Source: Clostridiales bacterium
GTDB lineage: Bacteria > Bacillota > Desulfitobacteriia > Desulfitobacteriales > Desulfitobacteriaceae
NCBI GenBank assembly: GCA_027357125.1
Contig: DAHVVW010000015.1
Coordinates: 1 to 13,372, forward strand
Reading direction: 5' to 3'
Length of the DNA stretch: 13,372 bases
In this document: piece by piece, positions 1 to 6,635 of the stretch
Layout: each line of letters starts with the position of its first letter
Position numbering within the stretch: position 1 is the first letter of the stretch
Notes under the pieces: model-generated
What the model was told of the DNA's origin: nothing
Seen by the model: only the letters and a program-made list of their open reading frames with translations
The model's database searches: none
Made by a program: the position numbers and the translations under genes

Positions 1-129
1 AACTTCTTTCACCCCTGTCAGCCCGCTTACGCCTGTCTGAAGGAAATCGACCGTAGAAATATCCAATACCCCTTCCAGAAAAAGCACAGCCCTCTGCTCA
101 GAGATCTCCGTCCGGATTTGCAACAACAT
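1..129 (-). CDS. STAS-domain protein, anti-sigma-factor antagonist-like (5' part only)
   Basis: The first 43 codons of a gene that runs off the left edge. It begins MLLQIRTEISEQRAVLFLEG and continues with VLDISTV, the alternating beta-strand pattern and 'LDIS' turn seen near the N-terminus of STAS proteins such as SpoIIAA and RsbV. In that family a conserved Ser, phosphorylated by an anti-sigma kinase and freed by a PP2C phosphatase, controls partner binding; that residue would lie outside the window, so it cannot be checked. The ATG is five bases past the fapA-like stop and has a GGAG ribosome site inside the end of that gene, so the two are translationally close. The PP2C phosphatase two genes upstream is a natural candidate enzyme for it. 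STAS membership rests on a short fragment; the role is inferred from context. Confidence 0.7.
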   Translation of the reverse strand, partial: MLLQIRTEISEQRAVLFLEGVLDISTVDFLQTGVSGLTGVKEV

Positions 130-134
130 TCCAC

Positions 135-1952
135 TCACGACTCCTTTCTGGTACCGGGATACTCTCGCTCCAGCCTTAAGTCCCCGTCCTTGCCTACGCT
201 GGCTCGCAAACGGCGGCAGTTCTCCGCAATAACCAGGTGATCCGCACCGTGTTCAATGGTTACAACCGGATGGACAATATTGGCTTCCAAACAACAATTG
301 TCGAGCATCCGGATAATTACCTGTGCATCATTGGGGGAACCCAGTTCCTGAACCTGGATTTTTTCCCGGGCAGTCAGGCGGCCGCCTCTTACCTTGCCAC
401 CGCTGATTAGAATTTGACCTGCGGCGTCCAGCTCCGAAACAATGCTGCCCTGTCCTTTCACAATGATGTTTCCGCTCGCCCACACCACACTGTTTTGCAC
501 ATAGCCCACCTGCACATCGGCTGTATTGCTGATCAGCCACATCAGAGTCTCTAGGGTCTGTTGCACCTCTTGGCTTAGCAACTCCATTTCAGCCTGCTTT
601 TTTATGCGAAGCGGACCTAAATTACACAGTTTTTCGTTTAGATCCCGCCCTAACTCAACCAGTTCTTGTTGCGGCCAATTTTCCGTTTCAGCCAACACGG
701 CCAGAAAATCATTGACAAGCTTTGGTACATCCTTATACTTGAAATCCATTAAGAGCTGAACCAAGCGTCCTTCGCCATTCAGCTTCAGATCCGCGGTGTT
801 AAAAGACGGTTGGCGTTTCAGAACTTCCATGGAACTGAGCAGTTGCTTCAGGCGGTCTGCCAAATGCTTAAGCACCCCATATATTCGCCTGTACTGGGAC
901 GAGAAGCCGCCGGCCTGGATCCGGGCAGTGATAGCCTTGTTATGAATAATGATCTCGTTATTAGCATAAAGAGAAGCGTGCAGGACATCGCCCCATACCT
1001 CGATGCTCCCTCCGGCTTCCACACCAAAGCCGTCCAGAACGCTGCCCGTCACCACAATGTTGCCTTTGAACTTGATATTTCCGGTCTTTCTATCCACGTC
1101 TCCGTTGATGATGTGCACAGGCTGGACGGACAAATACTTACGGATTGATCCGTCTAAGACCGGTTTGCCGGAAACTGCAGCCACCGCAACCGCTCCGTTT
1201 TGAATGAGACTTACCCCACTCTTGATAAGGATCGGTTCGTCTCGCGGAGGGCGGGGTTGTATGATTTTACCTGTCACGTCCATTCCTGCCTTCCCGGCCA
1301 CAGGAAGGTTTTTGACCGCTAAAACAGTCCCTATGGCAACAGACAAAGGATTGCCCTGGCCGTAAGGTTCAACCGTTCCCTGGAAGCGCCCGCTATTTTG
1401 AAAGGTATAAACAATCCCGGCATCCTGGGGTGGTATTGGTGCCTGACCGGCTGCTGCCTCAATACTCATGTTCTCGTCTTCCAGCTCAACCGCTTGCCGG
1501 ATTGCTTCCTCGTTAATTCCGTAAACAACCTGATTTTGGTGCAGGAGATCCCGCACCTGTTCGAAAGTAAGCTGCGGCCAGATGACTTGAGCAAAGCAGG
1601 CTTTAACCACTGCTTCCCCTGTCGGCGGAATATCTTCAACCACATAGCGTTTCCCGGGCTTTTTCCGCACTTGCAAAAAAGCTTTAAGCTTGTCACTGCT
1701 TAATTTAACCTCCACGGCCAGAAAGGGTTCCGTATTAAGGAGTTGTAATTCAACACTGTCCCCTTCGTGGACAAAAGCAGTCCGAACTATTTTTTCTCCA
1801 TTAAGGAGAACTTGCACATTCTTGTCCGGACTGAGCGTCGGAAACTTGCCGAGCCCCCGGGGATTGCACACGATAACTTGACCGTTCTTAATTGTAACCC
1901 AGCCATCCTGATCCGGCAGATCCGCTTGTTGCCCAACTCCTATGCCAACCAT
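135..1952 (-). CDS. DUF342 / FapA-family protein
   Basis: A 605-residue soluble protein of the DUF342 family, now usually named flagellar assembly protein A after the Vibrio vulnificus FapA protein. Older databases often call members 'polymerase', without support. The N-terminal ~160 residues hold small beta-rich segments. Residues about 175-350 carry the typical DUF342 beta-helix rungs, with the family-like run GTVLAVKNLPVAGKAGMDV (209-227) and repeated G-x-I/V turns (VTGSVLDGFGVEAGGSIEV). A predicted helical, coiled-coil-like stretch follows (about 355-480), then more beta-helix repeats rich in Gly (about 490-570). No signal peptide or membrane segment is seen. Start is ATG with GGGGAAG about ten bases upstream. 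It lies 23 bases after the PP2C gene and five before the STAS gene. No flagellar gene is in view, so a motility role is inferred from the family and the c-di-GMP context only. Confidence 0.88.
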   Translation of the reverse strand: MVGIGVGQQADLPDQDGWVTIKNGQVIVCNPRGLGKFPTLSPDKNVQVLLNGEKIVRTAFVHEGDSVELQLLNTEPFLAVEVKLSSDKLKAFLQVRKKPGKRYVVEDIPPTGEAVVKACFAQVIWPQLTFEQVRDLLHQNQVVYGINEEAIRQAVELEDENMSIEAAAGQAPIPPQDAGIVYTFQNSGRFQGTVEPYGQGNPLSVAIGTVLAVKNLPVAGKAGMDVTGKIIQPRPPRDEPILIKSGVSLIQNGAVAVAAVSGKPVLDGSIRKYLSVQPVHIINGDVDRKTGNIKFKGNIVVTGSVLDGFGVEAGGSIEVWGDVLHASLYANNEIIIHNKAITARIQAGGFSSQYRRIYGVLKHLADRLKQLLSSMEVLKRQPSFNTADLKLNGEGRLVQLLMDFKYKDVPKLVNDFLAVLAETENWPQQELVELGRDLNEKLCNLGPLRIKKQAEMELLSQEVQQTLETLMWLISNTADVQVGYVQNSVVWASGNIIVKGQGSIVSELDAAGQILISGGKVRGGRLTAREKIQVQELGSPNDAQVIIRMLDNCCLEANIVHPVVTIEHGADHLVIAENCRRLRASVGKDGDLRLEREYPGTRKES

Positions 1953-1975
1953 CGGTTTTCACACTTCCCCACTTT

Positions 1976-3190
1976 TTATTCAACCTTAAACAATAAAAAG
2001 CTAATGTCATCTCGTTGCCTGGTATCACCTATGTATTGTCCAAGGTGAATAATTAATTTGTCGGCGATTTCCGCTGCGCTGAAGAGAGCGTTTTTTTCTA
2101 AAACGTCAACCACCTTGCACAAGCCGAATTGTTGTCCTTCCGCATTGGCGGCTTCCGTTACACCGTCACTGTAAAACAAAACAATATCGCTTTCTTTCAG
2201 CTGCACCCCTGCCAATTTGAATTTGTAATGTTCCATACCCCCTATGTAAACCCCTTTTACTTTAAGCAGTTCAAATTGCCCGGTCCGGCCATGATATATC
2301 AGCGGCGGGAGATGACCGGCATTGGCCAAAAACAGAACCTTTTTGACAGGCTCATACAGAGCGTACTGCAGCGTCACAAAAATGCTTTGACCGGCTAGAT
2401 CCGGATAAAGACCCCTATTCACTTCCGCAAGCACGGCATCAGGCTGAGAAAAAGTCCGGGCCGCAGTACGGAGGGCCACCCTGGTCATAGCCATCCATAA
2501 GGCAGCAGGAATCCCTTTCCCCATCACATCTCCCACGGCAATCCCCAACAGCTTATTCGGTGTTTGAAATAAGTCCAGGTAATCACCGCCTACCTCATGG
2601 GCCATCAACGAGCGCATGGCCAGGGAAATCCCTTTGATATCCGGTATTTTTTCCGGCAACAGACCTGTTTGGATATGCGCTGCCATTTCCAATTCTTTGC
2701 TCAGGCTCCTACCGTTGACACCGGAATGATAAGTATAATTGTAAATCCCCTGCGCCAGGTCGCGGCTAATTTGATGTACCAGCATCAGCGGGGCGTTCCC
2801 AGCGTGGATATCCGGAGCAAACCACAGGCAAACGGCTCCTATGACCTGAGTTTGTCTGACCAAGGGGCTGGCGATAAGGAGCAACTCCTGATTTCCTCCG
2901 ACCCGAAGTTTTTGCCAAACAAGAGCTTGCTCCTGCTCGATTGCCTGCTTGGCTACTGCAAAATCCAAGTTAACAAGTTCCGACGGCAAGTCCTTAACGG
3001 CTTGATACATCGCCAAGCGCTCCTGGCTTCGCCCCCCGCCGGAGCGAGCCAGCCACAGACTACAGCAGGAAGCTCCCAGATCCAAGCACAGGCGGCAAGT
3101 GATTTCTGTAAAAGCCTGCTCGTCTGCTTGCGCTTGCAGGAGGAGAGAACAGACCTGGTATAGAATTTCCTTCTCCTCTGTCTTTATCAT
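1976..3190 (-). CDS. GAF-PP2C (SpoIIE/RsbU-type) serine phosphatase
   Basis: A 404-residue protein with an N-terminal GAF-like sensor region (about 1-150), a short helical linker (KELEMAAHIQTGLLP, 165-179) typical of RsbU/RsbP-type enzymes, and a C-terminal PP2C SpoIIE domain. The metal-binding motifs are all present: GGDYLD (201-206), GDVMGKG (220-226), SDGVTEA (341-347) and DDISF (394-398), so it should be catalytically active. Family members dephosphorylate STAS anti-anti-sigma proteins; the STAS gene two places downstream is the likely substrate (inference). The frame can be extended ten codons upstream, but I chose the ATG one base after the previous stop because GAGGGG lies about seven bases before it and the extension would run into the HD-GYP gene. 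No membrane segment is present, so the sensor acts in the cytoplasm. The ligand of the GAF-like region is unknown. Confidence 0.9.
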   Translation of the reverse strand: MIKTEEKEILYQVCSLLLQAQADEQAFTEITCRLCLDLGASCCSLWLARSGGGRSQERLAMYQAVKDLPSELVNLDFAVAKQAIEQEQALVWQKLRVGGNQELLLIASPLVRQTQVIGAVCLWFAPDIHAGNAPLMLVHQISRDLAQGIYNYTYHSGVNGRSLSKELEMAAHIQTGLLPEKIPDIKGISLAMRSLMAHEVGGDYLDLFQTPNKLLGIAVGDVMGKGIPAALWMAMTRVALRTAARTFSQPDAVLAEVNRGLYPDLAGQSIFVTLQYALYEPVKKVLFLANAGHLPPLIYHGRTGQFELLKVKGVYIGGMEHYKFKLAGVQLKESDIVLFYSDGVTEAANAEGQQFGLCKVVDVLEKNALFSAAEIADKLIIHLGQYIGDTRQRDDISFLLFKVE

Positions 3191-3191
3191 C

Positions 3192-4268
3192 TCAATTCCC
3201 CTCATCCAAGAGCCGGACAATACAGCAGTTCGGATTTAACGCCAAATCCAACTCATAGGGCGGAACAATTCTTTTTCCTCCAGAATCGGCCAGCACTCTG
3301 ACCCGGGGCCGCGTTGGGTGTTCTTTGCAGGTCTGCACGACTACCCCTTTTTCTTGCGTATTGAGCATGATCAAGGTTCCAATGGGAAAAACAGCAACCG
3401 TGTTCATGAAATTTTCCACCACGTCAGGGTGAAAGAACTTTTCCCGGTTGGCAATAATTAATTCAAGAGCCTGAAAAGGCAAACAGCGAGGCTGCCCACC
3501 CCACCCGCTGGTTAACTTATCATAAAGATCGGTTACCGCAACAATCCTGGCAAATTCATTGATTGACTCCTTTGGCAGTTGCCTGGGATAGCCGCTACCG
3601 TTGTAACGTTCATGGTGTTGTAAAGCCACATGGGCAGCAGACAAACTAAAGTTTTCCAACTTGCGCAAAACCTTGAACCCCAGAACGGTATGCTGTTGAT
3701 ACAGGTTTTCTTCTTCGTCGGTCAAAGGCCTGTCCTGCTTCAAGACATTTTCCGGCAGCAAAGTATTCCCGATATCATGGAACAGAGCCCCTGTTCCCAG
3801 CTTGCAGAGTTTCTCCCGCTCATAGCCCATGGCAATCCCAGTAATCAGAGAAAGAATAGCCACATTCACACTGTGCCCAAACGTGTAATCGTTCAGAGCG
3901 CGGATATCCACCAAGTTAACGATTACATCCTTGTTGCTCAGCAATTCTTCGATAATATCGTCAACCACTGACTTTACCTTAGACAGCTCCAAAGCCGGGC
4001 TCAGCTTGAGATTATCCATAGCCTCCTTCGTTATTTTCAGGGCTTGCAACCGGGTCTTCTCCGAAACGACATCGTTGATTTCAAGATCGCCCACCTCTTC
4101 GTCATGAATATAAAGAGCAAGCACTCCCAGCTCTTGGAGCCTCTGAATATAGCGGGGAGTCAATGTGATCCCGGCAGCCAGCAAGGTCTCGCCGCTGGCC
4201 CCGTAAATCGCTCTGCTCACCTGCATACCCGCCCGCACCTTGTCAATGGGCATAGCCCGCACACTCAT
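3192..4268 (-). CDS. HD-GYP domain protein, divergent active site
   Basis: A 358-residue protein with a small N-terminal domain (about 1-70) and an HD-GYP domain (about 120-290) followed by a short beta-rich tail. H132, the HD pair (164-165), H193, HH (218-219), GYP (226-228) and D247 are present. Two usual features differ: the HDxGK lysine is Asn (HDIGN, 164-168), and the segment after D247 reads LYDKLTSGWGGQPR in place of the common DALTxDRPYR. HD-GYP enzymes hydrolyse c-di-GMP (or related dinucleotides) with a metal centre; here most metal ligands remain, but activity may be reduced or altered. The chosen ATG follows a GGGGGAGGG run at short spacing. An ATG at 4307, overlapping the previous stop as TGATG, gives 13 more residues and is a real alternative, though I see no good ribosome site for it. 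Confidence 0.87.
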   Translation of the reverse strand: MSVRAMPIDKVRAGMQVSRAIYGASGETLLAAGITLTPRYIQRLQELGVLALYIHDEEVGDLEINDVVSEKTRLQALKITKEAMDNLKLSPALELSKVKSVVDDIIEELLSNKDVIVNLVDIRALNDYTFGHSVNVAILSLITGIAMGYEREKLCKLGTGALFHDIGNTLLPENVLKQDRPLTDEEENLYQQHTVLGFKVLRKLENFSLSAAHVALQHHERYNGSGYPRQLPKESINEFARIVAVTDLYDKLTSGWGGQPRCLPFQALELIIANREKFFHPDVVENFMNTVAVFPIGTLIMLNTQEKGVVVQTCKEHPTRPRVRVLADSGGKRIVPPYELDLALNPNCCIVRLLDEGN

Positions 4269-4306
4269 CACCCTCCCCCTGGGGATTCCTGCCTGAAAGT
4301 CTCTCA

Positions 4307-5422
4307 TCAAGCCGATGGGTTAAATTCCGGTCGTGAACCTGAGTTGCGATCAAAGGTAATACTATTTACGGTTAAAGTGCGATTTTTCCTTAAGTCAATA
4401 ATCTTTTCTCCCTGTACAGGCCTTCCCTGCCGATCCGCAATGATGCGCACCACCGGACGGGTGGGTAAATCAGAGGCAAGCGCAATCACGACGCCCGTTT
4501 CTCCGCTGTTCAAAGTCACTGTGGAATGTTCTGGATAGAGGAGAACACAACTTCGCCAAGCCCGCACCACTTCCGGAGCATAACTCAAACCTGATCCGTT
4601 CAAGATCATCTCCAAGGCATGGTAAGGAGACAACCCAACTTTGTACGGACGGTCTTCAGTTAAGGCATCAAAAACATCCGCCACCGCTACGATTTGGGCA
4701 TTGGGATGAATTTCACCCGCCCGCAAACCGTCTGGGTAGCCTTGTCCTCCCCACCGCTCGTGGTGCTCCCGAATCACCCGCAAAACCTCGTCCGGCCAGC
4801 CCGCATCCCGTAAGACCTGTTCCCCGCGAACAGGATGGCTCTTGATCACTTGAAATTCCTCCGGCGACAAAGCGGACGGCTTGTGCAAAATCTCACGGGG
4901 AACCAGTAATTTGCCCCAATCGTGCAACACGGCGCCACTTGCTAAGTTGGTGAGTTCCTCAATCTCATACCCCAGATAGATGCCGATGATCGTCGCCAGC
5001 AAAGCCACATTCACAGAATGAATATAGGTATACCGATCATGGTTATCCAGCCAGGAGAAGCCGGGAAATCCGTGACACCTCTCCAGATCCTGCAGGGATC
5101 TTGCCAAAATCGGCAGCGCCTGTTTAAGATAATCAATCCGGATAAAATGAGAATTGTAGCGTATATGCTTAAGGGGGGCTTTCTGAAACTGATCGTCCTT
5201 GAAATCAACCGACTGTTTACGCCCCGCTAATTCGCTCCACTCATAGCTGACTACATAGATCTCTTTTTTACAGGCAAGCTCGAAAACTTGTGCGCTAACT
5301 GCTTCCCCTTTCTCCAAAAGTAAATAGCCTCCCTGATCAAACAAATCGAACGGTGAGGGCTTACCCTGTAAAACAGTATCAACCTGAATCGGAACAATCT
5401 GCAGTTTCAAGACACCATTCAC
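4307..5422 (-). CDS. HD-GYP domain c-di-GMP phosphodiesterase (canonical)
   Basis: A 371-residue protein and first gene of the c-di-GMP riboswitch operon. Residues 1-115 form a domain without a clear family. Residues about 120-300 are a full HD-GYP domain: H135, HDWGK (167-171), H196, HHERWGGQGYP (220-230), and AVADVFDALTEDRPYK (246-261). All expected metal ligands and the substrate-associated GYP and RPYK stretches are present, so c-di-GMP hydrolysis to pGpG/GMP is the expected activity. No membrane segment or receiver domain is visible; regulation may come through the N-terminal domain. The start is uncertain: GTG at 5422 begins inside the AAGGGG(TGA) ribosome-like site, while a TTG four codons later (5410) is spaced better from it. 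It overlaps or nearly abuts the second HD-GYP gene. Being under a c-di-GMP sensor suggests feedback control. Confidence 0.93.
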   Translation of the reverse strand: MNGVLKLQIVPIQVDTVLQGKPSPFDLFDQGGYLLLEKGEAVSAQVFELACKKEIYVVSYEWSELAGRKQSVDFKDDQFQKAPLKHIRYNSHFIRIDYLKQALPILARSLQDLERCHGFPGFSWLDNHDRYTYIHSVNVALLATIIGIYLGYEIEELTNLASGAVLHDWGKLLVPREILHKPSALSPEEFQVIKSHPVRGEQVLRDAGWPDEVLRVIREHHERWGGQGYPDGLRAGEIHPNAQIVAVADVFDALTEDRPYKVGLSPYHALEMILNGSGLSYAPEVVRAWRSCVLLYPEHSTVTLNSGETGVVIALASDLPTRPVVRIIADRQGRPVQGEKIIDLRKNRTLTVNSITFDRNSGSRPEFNPSA

Positions 5423-5431
5423 CCCTTTTTT

Positions 5432-5463
5432 AAAACAAAAGCGCCATACCCAGGAGGTATGGC
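5432..5463 (-). terminator. Intrinsic terminator, expression platform of the c-di-GMP riboswitch
   Basis: On the minus strand GCCATACC-TCCTG-GGTATGGC forms a perfect 8-bp stem with a 5-base loop, followed after two bases by TTTTGTTTT. It lies between the aptamer (ending near 5487) and the ribosome site of the first HD-GYP gene (from about 5431). That position is typical of a transcription-control platform. I could not identify a convincing antiterminator by eye. Confidence 0.82.
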
Positions 5464-5486
5464 AACTCTAACCAACTACTCCCTGT

Positions 5487-5570
5487 TCGGTAACCCAGCC
5501 GTCATCACCTTGAAGTGGAAGACCTGTGGCTTTGCGCCCCCGGCTTTCGCCGGGTTTGCCTTTGTCGCAG
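5487..5570 (-). promoter_or_regulatory. c-di-GMP class I (GEMM-I) riboswitch
   Basis: Read on the minus strand, the region shows the conserved GEMM-I pieces in order. First GGCAAACC (5560 down). Then a stem with a GAAA tetraloop (CCCGGC-GAAA-GCCGGG). Then GGCGCAAAGCCAC, a second variable stem, and finally ATGACGGC-TGGGTTACCGAA. These match the class I aptamer, in which the GAAA loop docks into the second arm and the ligand lies at the three-way junction between GGCAAACC and GCAAAGCC. The RNA leads directly into a terminator hairpin and then an HD-GYP c-di-GMP phosphodiesterase gene, a well-matched target. Boundaries are approximate. Whether ligand turns the operon on or off is not decided by what I see; feedback logic favours activation of a phosphodiesterase by c-di-GMP, but this is inference. 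Confidence 0.94.
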
Positions 5571-5610: not shown

Positions 5611-5628
5611 TGCCACACTGATGTGGCA
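5611..5628. repeat. Perfect inverted repeat near the start of the riboswitch leader
   Basis: TGCCACA-CTGA-TGTGGCA, a 7-bp stem with a 4-base loop. It lies between the candidate minus-strand promoter and the riboswitch aptamer, just after the likely transcription start. It could be a 5'-end stem-loop of the mRNA or an operator; there is no T-run to make it a terminator on either strand. Confidence 0.6.
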
Positions 5629-5637
5629 TAGTGCCTG

Positions 5638-5667
5638 AATATATAACTTTAATGTAAGTATAAGTAA
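5638..5667 (-). promoter_or_regulatory. Weak candidate promoter of the c-di-GMP operon
   Basis: On the minus strand TTACTT and TATATT are separated by 18 bases in a very AT-rich stretch upstream of the riboswitch. It is the best sigma-A-like pair I found in the right place, but the match is modest and such pairs arise easily in AT-rich DNA. It would start RNA near 5631. Confidence 0.3.
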
Positions 5668-5709
5668 ATTTATATATAATCTTGTTTCAAATTGTACCAT
5701 TTAATCAAT

Positions 5710-6248: not shown

Positions 6249-6256
6249 ATGAGCAT

Positions 6257-6635
6257 GGCGAAGTCTCCGTTAAGCCGAGTTCTGTTCCTCTCTTAAGAGA
6301 GGTGATGATCATCTATCTGGGACCGCTGTTGCCAACGGCCTCATGCGACCTTACCCGGGAACGAAGCGGGCCGCTTCCTAGCTCCCCTATTCGGTCTTGC
6401 TTCAGGTGGGGTTTACAGGGCCAGCCAGTCACCTGGCTGCCGGTGAGCTCTTACCTCGCCTTTCCAGCCTTACCCAGCACTCAGTCGCCTGAGTGCCTGG
6501 CGGTATATCTCTGTTGCACTTTCCTTGGGGTAACCCCCACTGGGCGTTACCCAGCACCTTGCCCTATGAAGCTCGGACTTTCCTCAGAGACGACCTTTCG
6601 GTCCTTGCCTCCGCGATCATCTCGTCAACTTCGCC
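6257..6635 (-). ncRNA. rnpB: RNase P RNA (catalytic subunit), A-type-like
   Basis: The RNA that cleaves 5' leaders from precursor tRNAs. The minus strand shows the conserved landmarks in order: GAGGAAAGTCCG near the 5' end (the CR-I part of the core), GGGTAACGCCCAG and a paired arm, AACAGAGATATACCGCC, AGGTAAGAGCTCACC, AAGCAAGACCGAATAGGGG, and near the 3' end CAGATAGATGATCATC and GAACAGAACTCGGCTTA. The ends pair, GGCGAAGT at the 5' end with ACTTCGCC at the 3' end, giving about 379 nucleotides, usual for the family. The general layout looks A-type, as in many Clostridia, rather than the B-type of Bacillus, but I have not folded it. It has its own promoter whose spacing puts the start on the first G of the terminal helix, and its own terminator. 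Confidence 0.96.

Follow-up and report, generated by a model that had tools for sequence, protein, structure and literature searches.

Two riboswitches that share their fold with the one analysed here, together with the c-di-GMP-I-GGC family (RF03167), are the closest described systems. In the accessible part of Landgraf et al. 2022 (PMC9262584), Cd1, which belongs to the C. difficile flagellar operon, acts as an OFF switch at the level of transcription, its terminator being able to coexist with the aptamer and its antiterminator using strand A; the pilM cGAMP riboswitch of Geobacter metallireducens is an ON switch whose terminator uses an aptamer strand, and for both the decision is modelled as a kinetic one. 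Set against this account, the window (the whole stretch of DNA analysed, 13,372 nucleotides) resembles Cd1 in its aptamer class, in a terminator lying apart from the aptamer and in a strand A that could pair with the terminator as an antiterminator, and differs from it in its HD-GYP operon target and in a sign of control that we infer from sequence. Many leaders in the bacterial family of the window also differ from Cd1 in their predicted antiterminator strand, which is the 5' strand of P1. With pilM it shares the fold and terminator control, but it carries G20, unlike the cGAMP sensor, and its terminator does not overlap the aptamer. Within the sources searched, some of them accessible in part, no HD-GYP gene was found named under a c-di-GMP-I OFF switch, which is a statement about those sources and not a claim of absence from print. 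The elements of the leader and the genes behind it are as follows.

5640..5668, minus strand: candidate promoter TTTACT-17-TATATA, recognised by eye, 8/12 consensus bases
5485..5570, minus strand: c-di-GMP-I riboswitch aptamer, from Rfam models and pocket bases G20/A47/C92
5564..5568, minus strand: GCGAC (P), 5' strand of the aptamer, with GUUGC (5462-5466) as possible partner
5539-5554, minus strand: P2 hairpin with GAAA loop, inside the aptamer
5477..5485, minus strand: strand A, CAGGGAGUA, outer P1 or antiterminator strand
5443..5463, minus strand: core of the intrinsic terminator hairpin, site called at 5464-5442 independently of the aptamer, with CTTTTGTTTT directly after
5451..5459, minus strand: UACCUCCUG, inner terminator 5' arm and loop, possible partner of strand A
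5432..5440, minus strand: U-tract UUUUGUUUU, from the sequence
5420..5427, minus strand: Shine-Dalgarno-like AAGGGGTG, recognised by eye
4307..5410, minus strand: HD-GYP gene 1 with unaltered HDWGK, TTG 5410 favoured as its start (called: GTG 5422)
3192..4310, minus strand: HD-GYP gene 2, HDxGK motif reading HDIGN
1976..3220, minus strand: SpoIIE/RsbU-type phosphatase gene, probably in the same operon
135..1952, minus strand: FapA family gene (fapA), probably in the same operon

A sequence-only reading of this DNA had proposed a GEMM-I aptamer on the minus strand and named an Rfam covariance search as its check. This search recovered the aptamer, both with the parent c-di-GMP-I family (RF01051, 5486-5570 minus, 77.4 bits, the cut-off being 35) and, in the scan of the window, with c-di-GMP-I-GGC (RF03167, 5485-5569 minus, 76.5 bits, E 4.5e-17, cut-off 59), the latter being Rfam's best label by E-value. 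All 20 base pairs of P1, P2 and P3, as defined from the Rfam structure line, are standard ones, and P2 carries the GAAA loop. The pocket bases, in Vc2 RNA numbering, are G at position 20, A at 47 and C at 92. A at position 20 marks the cGAMP riboswitch (GEMM-Ib), and the window has G20. The consensus of the GGC model in its printed alignment has G at the position equated with A47, to which its name presumably refers; since the window has A there, we do not consider the GGC label apt, in spite of a score above the family cut-off. An effect of G20A is mentioned in the accessible part of PMC7288161. Read together, G20, A47 and C92 make this pocket one of the c-di-GMP type, with c-di-GMP as the predicted ligand.

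The proposed 8-bp terminator with its T-run was likewise recovered, by an independent terminator-like call whose core pairs GCCAUACC with GGUAUGGC. Its 5' arm begins 17 nt after the end of the aptamer, without overlap, and the whole leader folds better than 200/200 dinucleotide shuffles (z -3.32). Strand A has two possible partners: its CAG (5483-5485) may form the outer part of P1 with CUG (5568-5570), or all of it may pair with 5451-5459 as an antiterminator. In the full-length minimum-energy fold, GACAAAGGC pairs with the U-tract side; this pairing was set aside because the U-tract G is replaced by A in G011, a close relative. Upstream, the candidate promoter is identical in the same-genus relative G001 and lies below the threshold of the site scan, which lists none there, and the palindrome TGCCACATCAGTGTGGCA (5611-5628), considered as an operator, was discarded as not kept in G001.

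The assignment of the first gene to the HD-GYP family also held. HD-GYP 1 matches HD_5 (E 7e-29) and contains LHDWGK and HHERWGGQGYP, that is, the HDxGK and HHExxxGxGYP motifs; judged by eye, TTG 5410 is its likelier start, the called GTG 5422 overlapping the Shine-Dalgarno sequence. Aptamer class and HD-GYP target are secure. HD-GYP 2 departs from HDxGK with HDIGN and is possibly catalytically dead. Successive genes from HD-GYP 1 to fapA are separated by overlaps or a short gap, so the four probably form one operon; weak terminator-like matches inside it keep this at a probability (10 terminator-like matches in window 1-5480, both strands and the riboswitch's own included, against 6.3 expected from shuffles). 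The same four-gene order occurs in G001, with proteins 91-95% identical. In G011 the next of the four genes found after HD-GYP 1 is fapA (83% identity), with neither HD-GYP 2 nor the phosphatase gene between them; about 400 extra bases separate terminator and HD-GYP gene in this relative (locus L069). The genome of the window (76% complete) encodes six GGDEF domains, so c-di-GMP could be made, and holds two further RF01051 matches.

We propose that this c-di-GMP-I riboswitch controls transcription into the HD-GYP operon. Bound c-di-GMP would hold the P1 strands of the aptamer together, leaving neither the 5' nor the 3' strand free as antiterminator, whereupon the terminator would form and the operon would be OFF. 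When c-di-GMP is scarce, one of the P1 strands would pair with the 5' arm or loop of the terminator and transcription would continue. Low messenger would thereby give more phosphodiesterase and high messenger less, a positive (double-negative) feedback. OFF control, and with it positive feedback, is the better-supported sign and, from sequence comparison and folding models, the one we hold to be somewhat more likely than not, mostly because of what the family of leaders displays. How the messenger behaves over time is set by a riboswitch of this kind, which governs a gene for the removal of its own ligand; if OFF, the double-negative loop could confer memory on the decision of a cell to be motile or sessile.

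Matches to c-di-GMP-I were present in 51 of the 61 genomes searched. Our survey comprises the full listing of 64 such matches from 12 related genomes, 63 of them above the cut-off. An HD-GYP reading frame, recognised by motif, lies downstream of 13 of the 64, a count that rests on a simple choice of ORF and may be higher or lower in truth. For folding, 21 HD-GYP leaders were used: 14 chosen for an aptamer just upstream of an HD-GYP 1 homologue and seven from the survey. A terminator-like hairpin occurs within 120 nt in 58 of the 64 surveyed leaders and in the other six there is none; some of the 58 are weak (e.g. L136). In 57 of these 58 the hairpin begins downstream of the aptamer; the exception is L158, whose overlapping, ON-type hairpin is predicted to terminate with 0.995 when the RNA is free and 0.0 when the aptamer is folded. 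By the distinction between Cd1 and pilM drawn in the accessible part of PMC9262584, 57 leaders have the OFF layout and one the ON layout.

The P strand (5' strand of the aptamer plus upstream flank) and the terminator 5' arm (T) moreover covary across leaders. Over the 55 of 64 leaders that entered the permutation test, from which six without a hairpin, the overlapping one and two whose hairpin lies over 40 nt off were dropped, the mean P:T energy was -6.12 kcal against -4.65 kcal for permuted pairings (sd 0.27), and 0/5000 permutations were as low. The outcome was again 0/5000 after removal of the antiporter group (45 leaders), and also when each distinct P strand in those 45 was represented once (41 leaders). 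False-strand controls gave 51/2000 for the P2 loop region, a weak excess, and 1943/2000 for the other strand; the corresponding test of strand A across the survey was weaker than P:T (217/5000). The helix of the window itself (5 bp including one G-U) is weak, with an energy of -6.5 and rank 27/55. An early energy test with shuffled arms (14-leader mean -10.8 against -8.0 kcal, below 500/500 shuffles) was superseded by the permutation test, the window leader having been matched by 129/500 shuffles and its pairing found partly with the 5' strand of P2.

Folding of the 21 HD-GYP leaders pointed the same way. Pairing of the terminator arm with P averaged 0.50, against 0.23 for shuffled arms, and forcing the aptamer to fold lowered predicted termination in 0/21 leaders and raised it steeply in some, from 0.002 to 1.000 in G024, from 0.001 to 0.985 in L160 and from 0.069 to 0.964 in G017. 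In the random-stem control, the mean shift of 2.34 kcal was only modestly above that of random stems (1.58; best of 25 random sets 2.26), an excess carried by the 21 leaders together and absent in the lineage of the window; for this reason, and as forced aptamer folding tends to favour any outside stem, equilibrium folding was rejected as sole judge of the sign.

The lineage of the window comprises four leaders of close relatives: its own, G001, G003 and G011. All nine bases of strand A are identical in the four, and 20 of the 21 bases of terminator core and loop are kept, the single change, C to U in G003 (within 5451-5459), preserving its pair as G-U; the spacer to strand A varies. Such invariance around a variable spacer is what an antiterminator of strand A with the terminator would require. 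The hairpin of strand A with UACCUCCUG is predicted at -10.3 kcal and at -8.8 with CAG blocked as in P1, and this blocking weakens it in 4/4 leaders. The folding with and without aptamer suggested by the sequence-only reading therefore yielded an antiterminator candidate, but almost no switch at equilibrium: termination in the window leader is predicted at 0.995 for the free RNA and 0.997 once the aptamer is folded, and it exceeds 0.99 in either state in all four leaders. The sequence-only reading was right to leave the sign open on sequence alone. Random stems of the same composition shifted at least as much as the real one in 17/25 cases for the window, 8/25 for G001, 19/25 for G003 and 23/25 for G011, and shuffled arms paired equally well with P in 14/40, 7/40, 35/40 and 20/40, respectively. 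In partial transcripts ending at +11, +13 and +15, terminator formation in the window is 0.07, 0.26 and 0.84 free against 0.01, 0.07 and 0.59 folded, and in G001 0.10, 0.33 and 0.84 against 0.00, 0.05 and 0.79, so that in both the free RNA forms its terminator slightly ahead of the aptamer-folded one, a lean towards ON; the tendency in G003 and G011 is towards OFF, and by +17 the terminator has formed in all four. With partial transcripts this mixed, a kinetic switch is an assumption. A P1 strand acting as antiterminator in the manner of Cd1 is thus supported in the family and weak or mixed in the window, whose own predicted folding is weak evidence on the sign and leans partly the other way.

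Of the two signs that the sequence-only reading had entertained, then, family comparison favours OFF with positive feedback, while folding of the window is undecided and partly leans ON. An ON switch, in which c-di-GMP would prevent termination and phosphodiesterase would be made when its substrate is high, would close a homeostatic, negative-feedback loop and fits the three partial-transcript lengths in the window and G001. We regard it as unlikely, as a folded aptamer does not block a terminator whose 5' arm starts 17 nt downstream, termination in that state being predicted at 0.997, and the overlapping layout is confined to the single leader among the 58 with a hairpin. Somewhat less probable still is a strong terminator that is mostly ligand-independent, serving constitutive attenuation or controlled by another factor. 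Predicted termination above 0.99 either way in the four lineage leaders speaks for it; against it, conservation in these leaders extends jointly to strand A, the terminator loop and the aptamer, and transcriptional riboswitches may decide kinetically, which equilibrium folding does not see.

That the aptamer senses something else, such as 3',3'-cGAMP or the ligand of the GGC group, appears very improbable. It would account for the best Rfam label by E-value and for the fact that 5z7c, the solved relative with the top sequence score against HD-GYP 1, is named a 3'3'-cGAMP-specific phosphodiesterase; yet the parent family does no worse than GGC in score (77.4 and 76.5 bits, respectively), the pocket has neither A20 nor the G47 of the GGC consensus, and the 5z7c match covers residues 125-299, the HD-GYP domain. 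Returning to OFF control by c-di-GMP, we give roughly even chances to its wider form, namely that in Desulfosporosinus and kin HD-GYP genes have repeatedly come under c-di-GMP-I OFF switches with antiterminators drawn from P1 strands, so that c-di-GMP would silence its own destruction and an RNA-based positive feedback could lock a high or a low state. With the leaders assembled in this analysis, the sign can be put to a direct test in vitro.

Several aptamers among the relatives depart from the pocket of the window. In five of the 21 HD-GYP leaders (G026, G021, G020, G022 and G025; loci L143, L155 and L072-L075), position 92 is U instead of C, while G20 and A47 are retained. Pockets with A20, of the cGAMP type, precede HD-GYP genes reading HDIGT instead of HDxGK at L157, L160, L172 and L226. 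In the survey, A20 was found in 3/3 HDIGT leaders and G20 in 10/10 HDxGK leaders; a link between A20 and HD-GYP proteins without the HDxGK lysine was nevertheless dropped, as three of four further HDIGT leaders have G20 (L227, L228 and L229, by eye) and one A20 (L226).

Ten of the 64 RF01051 matches form a distinct group (L176, L177, L178, L181-L185, L190 and L191), of which L176 belongs to the genome of the window (C353:2109-2202 minus). They share GUUGGNG(C/U)AAAC, one additional U preceding A47 (GCUAAA), the 3' end UACAAG and the platform ACUUCU...GGGAGAG, and possibly represent a variant of altered ligand. Scanned proteins downstream of five of the ten are transporters of the Na+/H+ antiporter 1 (two), NhaB (one) and CitMHS/ArsB (two) types. 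Among 398 genomes sampled from the phylum, five matched a pattern for this group, all in the family of the window and its own genome among them. The Rfam scan of the window also placed a bacterial class A RNase P RNA at 6256-6632 on the minus strand (295.7 bits).
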